Virus record (IMG/VR): IMGVR_UViG_3300042691_009366
Span: 1-24,768 of that record
Reading direction: 5' to 3' (one strand)
Length of the DNA: 24,768 nucleotides
Source: a virus
In this document: piece after piece, positions 19,696-24,768 of the stretch
Position numbering within the stretch: position 1 is the first letter of the stretch
Layout of the letters: the number at the start of each line of letters is the position of its first letter
Position numbers and translations under genes: made by a program
Notes under the pieces: generated by a model
What the model was told of the DNA's origin: nothing
Database searches by the model: none
Seen by the model: the letters and a program-made list of their open reading frames with translations, nothing else

Positions 19696-20532
19696 ATGGC
19701 GATCCCTACCCCCTACTCCTACCGCCAGTACACCGGGGACGGGACGGCTAAGACCTTCTCAGTCCCGTTCCCGTACCTGGATCGGGTGCATGTCCATCTG
19801 TACCTGGACAGCAAGGAGCTGACGGTCGGGACCGACTACACCTGGACCAGTGGCACGCAGGTGCAGCTCACTACTGCACCACAGGCAGCGGTGCCTGGCG
19901 CGGTGCCAACCCCGGCCCAGCTGCTGACGGTCAGACGCATCACGCCAGAGGATGACCAGATCGTCCAGTGGAGGGACGGCAGCTACATCATTCAGGCTGA
20001 TCTCAATGAATCAGATCGGCAGTGGCTGTATCTGATCCAAGAGCATCACGACCAGTTGATGCTGTGGCAATGGGGCAAGGGCACCATCCCTGGTGGTGGT
20101 AGCCCTGCTGCAAGCGTGGCCATCTGGAACACGCTCTCCCGTGGCAGTGACCCGAAGAAGGGCACGCCCCAGGAGGTGGCCAACACCGTCACCAAGAAGG
20201 ACCAGCTCTCCGGTGACTGGCCCGTTGATGGCAAGGACAAGTTCATCGCCACCACCGATGCGTTGTCCGAACGGTTTGATGTCATCGTCTCCGACACCAA
20301 GCCACCCGACCCACCGATCACAGACATCAGACAGCCGGGCAAGATCTGGATTGATGACGGTGCTCTGCAGTTCAGCTACTGGGAGCCGACAGCAAAAGCA
20401 TGGGTGAACTTGGCAATGGCTGGCCCTGCGGGGCCGCCTGGTCCTCAGGCTCCCGGTGGGCTTGTTGCCGGTAACGGCGTCGCTGCCGATTCAATCAACC
20501 AAATCCAAACCATTGATCAAGGAGTGATCTGA
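19696..20532 (+). CDS. Tail fibre anchor protein with T7 gp17-type N-terminal domain
   Basis: A 278-residue protein. Residues 1 to about 140 match the T7 gp17 N-terminal (tail-binding) domain: YSYRQYTGDGTAKTFSVPFP, VHVHLYLDSKELTVGTDYTW, LLTVRRITPEDDQIVQWRDG and ADLNESDRQWLYLIQEHHDQ. That domain docks the fibre at the portal-adaptor junction. The rest contains KPPDPPITDIRQPGKIWIDD, a strand-rich segment, and a short collagen-like stretch (AGPAGPPGPQAPGG). T7 gp17 is 553 residues and includes shaft and tip; here the chain ends after the docking domain and the next genes presumably supply the rest. The stop overlaps the following ATG (TGATG), with AAGGAG 11 bases before it. Confidence 0.93.
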   Translation: MAIPTPYSYRQYTGDGTAKTFSVPFPYLDRVHVHLYLDSKELTVGTDYTWTSGTQVQLTTAPQAAVPGAVPTPAQLLTVRRITPEDDQIVQWRDGSYIIQADLNESDRQWLYLIQEHHDQLMLWQWGKGTIPGGGSPAASVAIWNTLSRGSDPKKGTPQEVANTVTKKDQLSGDWPVDGKDKFIATTDALSERFDVIVSDTKPPDPPITDIRQPGKIWIDDGALQFSYWEPTAKAWVNLAMAGPAGPPGPQAPGGLVAGNGVAADSINQIQTIDQGVI

Positions 20533-21662
20533 TGACTGTTGTTGTTCAGCAGCTGCGCACAACCAGCGCAACTGCACTGCCTGTTTCTCTGCAGCCTGGT
20601 CAGCTGGCCCTCAACCTGGCCAATGGCTGGATCTTGATGGGCGATGGTTCCAACGGCATCTCTGCCGCTGGTGTTGGCCTGGCTGCTGGTACCAACACCA
20701 TCTTCGGTGTGGCTGGTGTCGTTGTTCCCGCTGCCCCTGCTGCTGGCCTGGGTTACGAGATCTACGAACTGAAGAACCCGCCTGCATCGGTGCGGATCTT
20801 CAGTGGCACTGGCACCCAGCTCGATGCTGCCAACGGTGGTACGGGCACCATGACGGTGCGGACCACCGCCTACCTGGTGGCATCCACCACGCCGCCTGCT
20901 GACCAGATCAAGGCAGCTGGTGATCTGCGCAGTGGTGACACCATCGTGGTCAGCGGTGGCACCACTGGTTCCCCTGGTGGTTCCTACGTGTGGGATGGCA
21001 GCAGCTGGCTGCTGACTGGTGGTGCACTGCCTGATGCAACAGCTCGTACTGGTACTGGTGCCTCGGGCACTGGTGGCACCAAGGGTGTTGTCTACCTGGC
21101 CCGTGACACTGATGTGAAGCCTGCTGCTCAAGCAGGTGCCACTGCCCCTGATGGCTTGGCAGTTGCCACGGCAGCACAGGTGAAAGCCCTGGCCGAACTG
21201 GTGGCTGGCCTGGCGACTGGTTCCACCAGCCTGGGCACCTACGACGCATCAGTGGGTGGTGGACAGATCAAGTCCGTCACTACTGCTGCAACCGGTGGCA
21301 CCCCTGCCCGTGCTGGCTTCACCGTTGGCGGCAAGGTCAGCGCCGGCAGCAACATGGCCGAGGGCGATTACTTCCTCGTGGTGAAGGGTGGCACCGTCAC
21401 GGGTGATGCCGCCCCGCTGAACGTTGCACTCAATGCCAACGATCACATCGTCTACGACGGTGCGGCTTGGCACGTGGTGGCCTCTGGCGTGGTGGCCAGC
21501 TCAAGCAGCTCGGTTCACTCCGCCAATGACGTGAGCGACAGCGCCATCGCAACGATGACAGCTGTCAACCAGAAGGGCCTGCTGGTGCGCGACAACTCCA
21601 TCGCTGATGGCGCGGCCGCTGCATACAAGCTGGCCAACGTGCTCGATCTCGGTACGTTCTGA
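20532..21662 (+). CDS. Tail fibre protein 2, distal fibre component
   Basis: A 376-residue protein with AAGGAG before its ATG, translationally coupled to the fibre anchor. Residues about 1 to 42 follow a pattern (VQQLRTTSATALPVSLQPGQ, then LALNLANGWILMGDGSNGI) shared with the next two fibre genes. The rest is rich in Gly, Ala, Thr and Val with strand-forming repeats: SGDTIVVSGGTTGSPGGSYV and WDGSSWLL, then EGDYFLVVKGGTVTGDA and YDGAAWHVV, an apparent internal duplication of a GDxhhVxxGGTxxG ... WDGxxWxhh unit (near residues 135 to 162 and 277 to 317). No chaperone or enzyme motif is seen. I infer a fibre shaft or branching element that reaches host receptors; identity with a known fibre is not established. 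Confidence 0.85.
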   Translation: MTVVVQQLRTTSATALPVSLQPGQLALNLANGWILMGDGSNGISAAGVGLAAGTNTIFGVAGVVVPAAPAAGLGYEIYELKNPPASVRIFSGTGTQLDAANGGTGTMTVRTTAYLVASTTPPADQIKAAGDLRSGDTIVVSGGTTGSPGGSYVWDGSSWLLTGGALPDATARTGTGASGTGGTKGVVYLARDTDVKPAAQAGATAPDGLAVATAAQVKALAELVAGLATGSTSLGTYDASVGGGQIKSVTTAATGGTPARAGFTVGGKVSAGSNMAEGDYFLVVKGGTVTGDAAPLNVALNANDHIVYDGAAWHVVASGVVASSSSSVHSANDVSDSAIATMTAVNQKGLLVRDNSIADGAAAAYKLANVLDLGTF

Positions 21663-21667
21663 CGACC

Positions 21668-21695
21668 AACGGGGGGCTGTATAGCCCCCTTCGTT
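21668..21695 (+). terminator. GC-rich hairpin between fibre genes, possible weak terminator
   Basis: GGGGGCT (21672-21678) pairs perfectly with AGCCCCC (21683-21689) around a GTAT loop; AACG (21668-21671) and CGTT (21692-21695) can extend it past a small bulge. Only TTCGTT follows, so it is not a typical intrinsic terminator, but it could attenuate transcription or protect the upstream mRNA's 3' end. It lies 6 bases after the fibre 2 stop. Confidence 0.6.
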
Positions 21696-21710
21696 CCACT
21701 GCTGTATAGC
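21676..21710 (+). repeat. Direct repeat of GCTGTATAGC in the gap before fibre gene 3
   Basis: GCTGTATAGC occurs at 21676-21685, as the apex of the hairpin above, and again at 21701-21710, ending one base before the ATG at 21712. Each copy can fold on itself (GCT/AGC around GTAT). The second copy takes the place where a ribosome binding site would be expected, and no Shine-Dalgarno is present. Confidence 0.6.
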
Positions 21711-21711
21711 A

Positions 21712-21948
21712 ATGACCATCAAGGTTCAGCTCAAGCGCTCAGCCGTAACAGGCAAGATCCCAAAGCCAGCCGACCTGGAATACGGCGAGCTGGCTGTGAA
21801 CTACAACGTCGCTGACATCAAGCTCTACACCAAGGGCAGCGACGACAAGATCTATGAGCTGGGTGGAGGGCCGTTCAACCTTGACGGCGGCTTTGCCAAC
21901 AGCACCTACGGCGGTGCGCCAGCTGCCGTTGACGGCGGCCACGCCTGA
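21712..21948 (+). CDS. Small tail fibre protein, single docking-type module
   Basis: A 78-residue protein consisting of little more than the module shared by its neighbours: VQLKRSAVTGKIPKPADLEY, then GELAVNYNVADIKLYTKGSD. Such segments (KRS...GxxPxxxDLxxGELAhN...hYTK) are common near the N termini or in the middle of phage fibre and Mtd-like receptor-binding proteins. The C terminus, FNLDGGFANSTYGGAPAAVD, is a glycine-rich tail of the DGG-x-A type seen at the ends of small phage fibre proteins. It lies in the fibre cluster, downstream of a hairpin and 29 bases before the spike gene. Start: ATG 21712 without Shine-Dalgarno. A role as spacer or adaptor in the fibre is inferred. Confidence 0.8.
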   Translation: MTIKVQLKRSAVTGKIPKPADLEYGELAVNYNVADIKLYTKGSDDKIYELGGGPFNLDGGFANSTYGGAPAAVDGGHA

Positions 21949-21977
21949 TTCATCCATCCACCCAATCGAGCTGAACC

Positions 21978-23819
21978 ATGGCCAACAAGATTCAACTGCG
22001 CCGCGACACTGCCGCCAACTGGACCACCGCCAATCCCGTGCTGGGGCAGGGCGAGCCTGGCGCTGAGATTGACACCGGACGACTCAAGATCGGTGATGGC
22101 GTCAAGGACTGGAAGACGCTGCCTGACATCTCTGACAGCCATCTTCAGTTCACCCAGGCCGGCGCTGGCGCCAAGCCGCGCGGCCTAACTGCCAAGCTGC
22201 AGGACATGGTGAGCGTCAAGGACTTTGGCGCGGTTGGCGATGGCAATGCGGATGACACGGTTGCGATTCAGGCAGCCATCGACTCAGGCAAGGCTGCCTT
22301 TGTGCCAAAAGGTACCTACAAGATTTCGGCTACGCTGAATCTTAACGATGGCTACAAAGCGTTGATTGGCGATGAGTCCATGCCGATTATCACCAAGACA
22401 AACGCGGGGCCAGCAATTCGGATAGGCGTTACTTCGGGTACGGCGGGGTTGAACGAACGCTCGTCCGTACAAAACCTTTTCCTGAAATCCACCACTGTAA
22501 CCCCGACGTTTCCAATTGCTCCAAGCCAAAACGATGCAGCGGTTGTCTTAAATGGCAGTGATTCATCTACTGCAGCTGCGGTACAGGCTGCCCGGGTTTG
22601 CAACGTCAGAGTAGGCGGCTGGTCCTGCGGCTTCTTCCTTAGGGACACAGTGGGATGCACGATTGAGCAATGCACCGTTCAACTCCTGAAAAGCCAAGCG
22701 GCTGCCACGGGCTTTACGGCTGACAATAAGTTCTGCGGTTTTCTCCTCAACTGCACTCCGCACACTCCTGGGGGCATCTCTCCTCAAGCCAGTCTTGAGC
22801 TAGTGGAGATTGACGTTGTCGCTGAAGGTACTCCTACCGCAGTCACTTCCATTGGCTATTACGTTATCGGTCCCGACATTCGGGACATCTTCTTTGATCG
22901 CTGTGAAGCCACGGCTACGACGTATGGCTGGTACGTCCTGACCACAACTTCTGATTACAACTGGGACATTCACATTAGACGCCCAATCGTGGACGCCTAC
23001 AGGCGCCATGGTATTTATGTTGAGGGAGCAAATGGTCTGGGTGCTATCACAGTAAGTGGCGGCTATTTTATCGGCAGAAGCACTGCCAATGCCTGCATTT
23101 TTGTTAAAAACTCAAGCGGTGTTACCGTCACTGGCGGCGCTCAGGTGCTTGGCCCCGGCAATGACACAGCCTTAGACGATGGCGTTCACTTCGACACCTG
23201 TAACTCCTGCTCAGTTGTCGGTAACAACTTCGTCAATCTTAACTTTGGCGTAAGCCTGTATAAGTCAAACAACTGCACGGTTGTTGGCAATAGTTTCTCC
23301 GCTGCCGCTACCGCCACAGAAGCGCATCCAGCCTTGTCGGAAGCAATCAGGGTAAACGATGGCTCAGAGGAGAACACGATTGTTGGCAATGCAATCAACG
23401 GCAAAGACGCAACGGATAGGTACGACCGTGGGATTGCAGTTGCTGCCGGGTGCTTGCGCAACGTGGTGCTAGGCAACTCTATTGATAGCACCAGTGTTGC
23501 CACGGCTTACAGCATTGCAGACTCAAGCACGACCTTGCTCAGTGCTAACGCAACAACCATTTCTTCCACTAGCATCTGGCTCAAAAGCAATAGCGCAAAA
23601 CTACAACTTCAAGGGAGTGATGCCGCGACGCCAGTTGAGTTTTTAGACGGAGCTGGTGCCGTGGCATCCTGGGTTCGCGCTGATGGTGGTTACAGGTCAA
23701 GGACAAGGCTGACTCTTCAGGGGAGTGATGCCACCTACCCCGTTGTTTTCCTTGACGGTGCCGGAAATCCTATTGCCAAGATCAACAACGCTGGCGTTTA
23801 CAGCCCTGGCGCGCCCTAA
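21978..23819 (+). CDS. Tail spike protein with pectate-lyase-type beta-helix
   Basis: A 613-residue protein. Residues 1 to about 50 (NKIQLRRDTAANWTTANPVL, GEPGAEIDTGRLKIGDG) form the docking-type module also found in the two preceding genes. Residues about 76 to 93 (VSVKDFGAVGDGNADDT) and AFVPKGTYKIS are the classical opening of pectate-lyase/P22-tailspike-type right-handed beta-helices. The following part shows helix-rung repeats such as NSCSVVGNNFVNLNFGVSLY and NNCTVVGNSF. The C terminus has two 36-residue repeats. I infer host-surface polysaccharide binding or cleavage; the substrate is unknown and no active-site residues can be assigned. The coding region after residue about 90 has lower GC and different codons from the rest of the window. 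Its stop overlaps the stop of the minus-strand gene by three bases. Confidence 0.9.
   Translation: MANKIQLRRDTAANWTTANPVLGQGEPGAEIDTGRLKIGDGVKDWKTLPDISDSHLQFTQAGAGAKPRGLTAKLQDMVSVKDFGAVGDGNADDTVAIQAAIDSGKAAFVPKGTYKISATLNLNDGYKALIGDESMPIITKTNAGPAIRIGVTSGTAGLNERSSVQNLFLKSTTVTPTFPIAPSQNDAAVVLNGSDSSTAAAVQAARVCNVRVGGWSCGFFLRDTVGCTIEQCTVQLLKSQAAATGFTADNKFCGFLLNCTPHTPGGISPQASLELVEIDVVAEGTPTAVTSIGYYVIGPDIRDIFFDRCEATATTYGWYVLTTTSDYNWDIHIRRPIVDAYRRHGIYVEGANGLGAITVSGGYFIGRSTANACIFVKNSSGVTVTGGAQVLGPGNDTALDDGVHFDTCNSCSVVGNNFVNLNFGVSLYKSNNCTVVGNSFSAAATATEAHPALSEAIRVNDGSEENTIVGNAINGKDATDRYDRGIAVAAGCLRNVVLGNSIDSTSVATAYSIADSSTTLLSANATTISSTSIWLKSNSAKLQLQGSDAATPVEFLDGAGAVASWVRADGGYRSRTRLTLQGSDATYPVVFLDGAGNPIAKINNAGVYSPGAP
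23601..23816 (+). repeat. Two tandem 36-residue repeats at the spike C terminus
   Basis: Codons from 23601 and from 23709 encode two units exactly 36 residues long (residues 542-577 and 578-613), ending at the stop. The shared core is L-x-LQGSDA-x-x-PV-x-FLDGAG, about 17 of 36 residues identical by eye. The repeat is protein-level; the DNA copies have diverged (GGGAGTGATGCC is kept in both). They probably form a trimerisation or receptor-binding tip, or a release module. Confidence 0.8.
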
Positions 23820-24021: not shown

Positions 24022-24768
24022 TCACCCTTCAAGGGCACTGACACAGGCAGCGAGGGCATCAGTGTTGGTGTGGAGGTAGCGCTGGACTGAGGCCAGCGAT
24101 GTCCAGCCGCCATAAGCCATGACCAGGTGGAGTGGGATGCCTGAGCTGGCCAGCTTGCTGGCGCAGGTGTGCCTGGTGGTGTGGATGCCCAGGCTCTCGT
24201 CACCACCCAGGCCAACGCCTTCCTTGGCTGCCTGTAGCAGGCGTCTGTATTGCATGTAGGTGTAGGGCCAGACCTTGTGTGTCCCAAGTGCGGGAAGGTG
24301 GCCTTGCAGGGCCTGCTGGGCGCGTTGTGTGAGCGGTACTGAGCGGACGCGGTTGGCCTTGGTCTTGCTGAAAGTGACCCGACCCTTCACCAGATCAACG
24401 TCTTCCCCTTTGAGGGCTTCTGCTTCACCCCAGCGAGCAGCGGTTTCGAGGAGGAACACGAGCAGATCGGCCGCGGCGGGATGACCAGCCTGCTGAAACC
24501 ACGAGCAGATGAGGGTCACCTCTTGGTCGGAGAACACACGGTCCTTGGTGTTCTGCAGCTTGAGCTGGGCTGGCAGTTTGGGGACTGAGGTGATGTGACC
24601 ACGCAGGTGAGCATCAGCGAGCATGGCCCTGAGGGCTGAGACCTTTTTGTTGACGGTGGCAGGGCGGTTGCCGGAGGCGAGCAGCTTGCGGCGCCAGGCA
24701 TCAACGGCTGGTGCTGTCACCTCTGACAGGAGGGTGTGAGCACCGAAGTAATCGACTGCTGCCTGTGA
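24022..24768 (-). CDS. int: Tyrosine recombinase integrase, N terminus cut by window edge
   Basis: The minus-strand frame stays open to the right edge, so the GTG at 24720 is not the true start and the N terminus lies outside; 248 residues are visible. The visible part begins with the end of the SAM-like core-binding domain (DYFGAHTLLSEVTAPAVDAW, then NRPATVNKKVSALRAMLADA), followed by the catalytic domain. Counting from the GTG at 24720, catalytic residues are Arg96 (TAARWGEAEAL), Lys119 (SKTK), His180 and Arg183 (HTTRH), Trp206 (GGWTS) in the His/Trp position and Tyr215 nucleophile (QRYLH), with the normal spacing of nine between the last two. All six are present, so the enzyme looks active. 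It would join phage and host DNA at attP/attB. No attachment site is seen in the window; it may lie beyond the edge, upstream of the gene. Confidence 0.95.
   Translation of the reverse strand, partial: SQAAVDYFGAHTLLSEVTAPAVDAWRRKLLASGNRPATVNKKVSALRAMLADAHLRGHITSVPKLPAQLKLQNTKDRVFSDQEVTLICSWFQQAGHPAAADLLVFLLETAARWGEAEALKGEDVDLVKGRVTFSKTKANRVRSVPLTQRAQQALQGHLPALGTHKVWPYTYMQYRRLLQAAKEGVGLGGDESLGIHTTRHTCASKLASSGIPLHLVMAYGGWTSLASVQRYLHTNTDALAACVSALEG

Follow-up and report, generated by a model that had tools for sequence, protein, structure and literature searches.

Paired tail and module classes suggest a serial fibre with a small adaptor in a T7-like virus

Four genes of a short-tailed virus probably encode one serial fibre, in which the C-terminal tail of each protein would dock to the N-terminal module of the next, using two coupling classes and a 78-aa protein as adaptor. 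We put the probability of this reading, whose contacts are deduced from sequence patterns, at about 0.7. The genes lie in a 24.8-kb IMG/VR virus record, analysed over its whole length and called the window here, together with T7-like structural genes for a head-tail adaptor, a major head protein and a tail protein. Three adjoining fibre genes open with related small docking modules, and the ORFs and coordinates first given for their 376-, 78- and 613-aa products were correct (Table 1). A tyrosine integrase gene (window 24022-24768, minus strand) sits at the right end of the T7-like structural cluster and suggests a temperate T7-like virus.

Table 1. Features of the fibre genes, in window coordinates
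Feature	Position	Strand	Basis
Phage_T7_tail N-terminal domain, anchor residues 5-120 of 278	19708-20055	+	PF03906 E 2.9e-28
Short collagen-like Gly-Pro stretch of anchor (GPAGPPGPQAPG)	20422-20457	+	Sequence read
Anchor C-tail TIDQGVI (PhiDxGxPhi)	20509-20529	+	[IL]DQGVI kept in relatives
376-aa protein	20532-21662	+	ORF check
376-aa N-module (diverged GQLALN type)	20532-20669	+	hhalign E 2.8e-4
376-aa C-tail VLDLGTF (Y/F class)	21639-21659	+	LDLG[TS][FY] kept in relatives
8-bp hairpin in 376-78 spacer (GGGGGGCTgtatAGCCCCCT)	21671-21690	+	Folded; kept in L003 with loop change
78-aa protein	21712-21948	+	ORF check
78-aa N-module (T4 gp37 type)	21712-21861	+	PHROG, tblastn, AlphaFold2
78-aa C-tail FNLDGGFANSTYGGAPAAVDGGHA (bipartite DGGxA class)	21874-21945	+	Resembles tails 5' of Mtd_N genes
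613-aa protein	21978-23819	+	ORF check
613-aa N-module (Mtd_N)	21978-22121	+	PF18454 E 1e-15
Right-handed beta-helix (pectate-lyase/NosD type) of 613-aa tip	22209-23552	+	PF12708 E 3.9e-14, PF05048 E 3.2e-9

In the proposed chain, a T7-type anchor of 278 aa would carry a 376-aa shaft, followed by the 78-aa adaptor and a 613-aa beta-helix spike. Each of the latter three proteins begins with an N-module of ~50 residues, and all links but the tip end in a short C-tail of the form PhiDxGxPhi. The N-module of trimer n+1 would be bound by the C-tail of trimer n, as gp37 is by gp36 in T4, and the classes of tail and module would have to match. At least two coupling classes are envisaged: D(G/F/L)GxY/F tails would pair with gp37-type GELAIN modules (class 1), and DGGxA tails, often as a double DGGxA, would pair with Mtd_N modules (class 2). 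By converting one class into the other, the adaptor could let an Mtd_N spike be mounted on a shaft whose tail is of the Y/F class. That the proteins are trimeric, dock physically and follow this order in the virion is what we infer from modules and tails that are present in the window and are paired by class in viral genomes. A serial chain is preferred because the modules of the 78- and 613-aa proteins follow two different C-tails, each of the class found before that type of module elsewhere.

The 278-aa protein encoded 5' of the fibre genes was predicted to be a gp17-type anchor, and its N terminus is a Phage_T7_tail domain (99 bits against a cut-off of 25.2). In T7-like phages this fibre N-terminal domain attaches to the adaptor-nozzle ring (PMC10575957). 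Further along the anchor, the GPxGPPGP motif of the collagen-like stretch was kept in 4/4 anchors, and the anchor tail IDQGVI belongs to neither strict class, A or Y/F.

The 613-aa protein opens with a member of the Mtd_N family (57.8 bits against a cut-off of 26.3, residues 5-42), whose solved relatives are phage hyaluronidases. At the C-terminal end of the spike (window 23598-23816) there are two repeats of ~32 residues (LQGSDAxxPVxFLDGAG). The N-terminal 50 residues of the 78-aa protein resemble gp37-type long-tail-fibre distal subunits, both by PHROG families (E 1e-7) and by tblastn (53% identity, E 7e-7), and this match over the first ~50 residues makes them a T4 gp37-type N-terminal module.

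Assignment of the 376-aa N terminus is less direct. Against the gp37-type profile it was colinear over residues 5-46, and with the module HMM it scored 17.7 bits, a value reached by 0/1000 shuffles and 1/745 viral N-termini, the single one being visibly another module. Weak tblastn matches were also obtained. Three of the four that were opened lie in phage proteins annotated as tail or fibre and start at their N-terminal end or close to it; the fourth (phiCbK) falls inside a large glycine-rich protein. A scan of genome contigs for a relative of the 376 family found none. AlphaFold2 gave this protein a mean pLDDT of 39, usable only over residues ~231-317 and not at the N terminus, and a fold search with this poor model was set aside as meaningless. 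Taken together, the 376-aa N terminus is moderately supported as a diverged copy of the gp37-type module, the weakest of the three but above chance. Its opening reads VVVQQLRTT and not the VQL-R/K-R of the original prediction, whose assignment of the protein to the module group nevertheless stands.

The three modules also appear to be related to each other. Profiles of the gp37-type and Mtd_N families aligned over 38 columns (hhalign probability 91%, E 9e-7), and the 78- and 376-aa proteins gave no Pfam match at E<=1; by these comparisons their modules are best described as relatives of Mtd_N and not as members. The expectation that the three N termini align is thus borne out beyond chance, strongly for the 78- and 613-aa proteins and moderately for the 376-aa protein. 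Profile searches of PDB sequences with gp37-type modules and with DGG tails returned chance matches only.

The 78-aa protein had been described as almost nothing but this module, which overlooked its last ~24 residues. These form a second conserved element, ending LDGGFANSTYGGAPAAVDGGHA, with a PhiDxGxPhi-type terminus (VDGGHA). Its sequence make-up suggests that the protein is probably an adaptor that couples the Y/F type to the A type. Further candidates for this role, each with a gp37-type module, a DGGxA tail and an Mtd_N gene next, are found in L062 (85 aa), L145 (107 aa) and L205 (128 aa), and L062 and L205 repeat the order of the window, with a Y/F-tailed protein, an adaptor and Mtd_N.

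It could be argued that the 78-aa ORF has decayed from a longer fibre gene, of which only the start was left when the 613-aa gene was acquired. Consistent with this, no clear Shine-Dalgarno sequence was read 5' of 21712, and in the viral relative L003 the spacer hairpin is shared and a module 58-60% identical to that of the 78-aa protein runs on into a long fibre body. We regard such decay as highly improbable, since the stretch that follows the module is not random sequence but a bipartite DGGxA tail common to many intact genes, and three other small proteins of the same make-up precede Mtd_N genes. The ORF is also intact in both matching contigs (L002 and L006), which add little because they are 100% identical. 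The spacer hairpin itself is GC-rich and is followed by a second small palindrome (GCTGTATAGC) just 5' of the start codon; it is possibly a site of mRNA processing or recombination.

Among the 16 CDS of the window that were checked, only the anchor and the 376- and 78-aa proteins have a PhiDxGxPhi end, and these are exactly the three encoded 5' of module-bearing proteins; the same end occurs on 2/728 ORFs from control loci. For a wider survey, 80 viral loci with an Mtd_N gene were fetched regardless of tails and the gene in front was inspected. With the strict A-tail defined as DGGxA or NGGxA, and near-identical ends removed before counting, 32 of 60 non-redundant proteins 5' of Mtd_N genes carried it, compared to 1/218 in the background (p 3e-24). 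Many of the 27/60 without the strict motif have near variants, and some are plainly unrelated genes. The proteins in this position span about 60 to 1000 residues. In a second set of loci, fetched by a gp37-type module, the proteins 5' of that module ended in D(G/F)GxY/F in 16/21 cases, compared to 4/218 (p 3e-17). The ratio of A to Y/F tails was 32:1 before Mtd_N and 0:16 before gp37-type modules (p 5e-12), using regexes that were written after the first loci had been seen and then applied to the others. At the corresponding junction in the window, the gene just 5' of the 78-aa gene ends in VLDLGTF, a D(F/G/L)Gx(Y/F) end as in gp36-gp37-like pairs.

The pairing also holds when read from the tail. 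DNA of viral contigs was scanned for a C-terminal DGGxA overlapping ATG, and the downstream protein was Mtd_N in 47 of the 95 usable loci, compared to 0/25 usable loci for a scrambled GGDxA control of the same composition and the same overlap (p 9e-7). We rejected the possibility that the TAATG overlap creates the pairing as a nucleotide artefact, because the control keeps the overlap yet yields no Mtd_N gene. Within loci that were selected neither for Y/F tails nor for gp37 modules, a gp37-type module came next after 11/17 Y/F-tailed proteins (7/13 without relatives of the window) and after 16/3159 tail-less ones. A-tails in the same locus set had Mtd_N next 69 times and a gp37-type module 0 times, where only the zero is informative because loci chosen for Mtd_N or A-tails are included. 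No earlier description of tail-module pairing was found, as judged from open-access papers.

Several observations mark the edges of this pattern. Proteins with a gp37-type module in T4-like cyanophages (MATPIRIKRS.., L417-L496) had the tail in 0/12 non-redundant upstream proteins; their genes come after an unrelated gene of ~130 aa without a tail. Therefore either some partners are encoded away from the neighbouring gene or the rule does not hold in all phages. DGGxA tails also precede N-termini of the forms MAIDFPNSP..GD.Y..G..W.W and M.LP.NV.YGTV.G.FL.A.ADG (L146, L182, L218; L091, L177, L186). Judged by sequence, these are candidates for further couplings, and the code would thus have more than two classes. 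WxITDGGxA ends, found on long proteins followed by genes of ~62-70 aa (L122, L126, L148, L153 and others), form a group that is probably unrelated to fibres.

Runs of genes that each combine an N-module with a C-tail were found in L382, L062, L049 and L032, and they bear on how the fibre proteins of the window are arranged. The original prediction held that several chains dock to one anchor rather than forming one long fibre, with trimers of the 376-, 78- and 613-aa proteins side by side through equivalent modules. The three modules do belong to one broad superfamily and come after a T7-type anchor, and branched fibres occur in other phages. The modules are, however, of different classes that stand behind different tails elsewhere. 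Moreover, the anchor has one tail only, the 376- and 78-aa proteins carry their own tails of the class expected for the next gene, and independent viruses show tail-then-module gene runs (L382, L062, L049). We consider side-by-side docking quite unlikely, and the module and tail classes point instead to a serial chain.

Natural exchange of tips, which had also been proposed, is seen among relatives of the window. L003-L008 retain the anchor and the 376-aa protein, with an ATGA overlap between them, and L006 is identical to the window. The third gene differs in its body among L003, L004 and the group of L005, L007 and L008, all of which begin with gp37-type modules there, so the distal gene varies despite a shared anchor and shaft. 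Another exchange involves the anchor itself: L111 and L112 have anchors with a 68% match to that of the window over residues 1-240, followed by another C-tail and another module type in the next gene. Here the anchor and the second protein end alike (..MTPLATLP, ..ISKLTLLP), and the second and third proteins begin alike (QNTD..V..GT..YKVS). These loci (L111:6001-9407 and L112, with L013 looking similar) form a third tail/module class of few cases, ISxLxxLP tails followed by QNTD..V..GT..YKVS modules, for which a search with two regexes found only the L111 example.

In the AlphaFold2 model of the 78-aa protein, residues 1-50 form a small domain rich in beta structure (pLDDT 80-88). Foldseek found no match to the model in the PDB at E<0.001; among predicted viral proteins it matched gp37 and proteins named for the Mtd N-terminal domain (best E 1.6e-4), names that may reflect either module. 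A weak structural match of the model to the trimerisation domain of collagen XVIII (Z 4.9 over 55 residues, rmsd 2.6) is only suggestive. The N-terminal domain of a phage K1 lyase has the fold of that collagen domain (PMC8822698). Both points would fit a different view, that the modules are N-terminal trimerisation or registration domains and the tails C-terminal caps, common in fibre genes and making no contact with each other. This view leaves unexplained the class specificity between neighbouring polypeptides (32:1 versus 0:16) and the joint change of anchor tail and next module in L111, and we judge it unlikely.

Beyond this virus, we consider it somewhat probable that tailed phages of many kinds share a coupling code, in which the C-tail specifies the class of the next N-module and adaptors convert between classes. 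If this is true, the order of a fibre, the partner of each protein and the number of links could be read from sequence alone. For many fibre genes of metagenomic phages, neither the order nor the tip to which they belong can be worked out, and the tail/module rule would predict their architecture from DNA. It would also explain the exchange of receptor-binding tips between unrelated phages, give short unannotated proteins a function as adaptors, and recast the long-standing puzzle of how gp36 and gp37 are held together as a specific contact between a peptide and a domain that can be tested.

The arrangement shares features with several known systems. In Klebsiella phages KP32, RaK2 and phiKp24, receptor-binding proteins attach via short N-terminal anchors, and branching uses other anchor domains. 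As in these branched systems, several receptor-binding proteins are encoded in a row, but the pairing here suggests a linear chain; the anchor and the 376-aa protein had no Pfam match to the T4gp10-like branching domain, which the library may file under another name. In T7, anchor and tip form a single chain. The first protein of the window likewise has the T7 fibre N-terminal domain (PF03906), although this anchor is encoded as a short protein of its own and ends in a C-tail.

The junction most like the one proposed is that of T4, where gp36 trimers bind gp37 at its N-terminal region in an established head-to-tail trimer junction (PMC3004832). The gp36-type proteins that were inspected end QDFGYY, QDFGTY, IDFGAY and similar, and gp37 starts with the module. 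In Straboviridae the upstream protein has a DFGYY/DFGTY end and gp37 opens with the module of the 78-aa protein. Here, in a T7-like virus, that module is instead part of a 78-aa adaptor, which has a second tail of its own and leads on to a different module class. For the tip, the comparison is with Bordetella phage BPP-1 and with phage hyaluronidases, since the 613-aa protein clearly begins with Mtd_N. The N-terminal beta-prism of Mtd presumably makes the attachment to the tail fibre (PMC10743442), and this attachment and the T4 junction support the first suggestion that the modules are docking-like. The gene before mtd in BPP-1 encodes bbp9, a putative tail fibre protein with the C-terminal end LADLGGIA, similar to the A-tail but not a strict match. 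Past its Mtd_N domain, the 613-aa protein differs from Mtd in being a beta-helix spike and not a C-type lectin.
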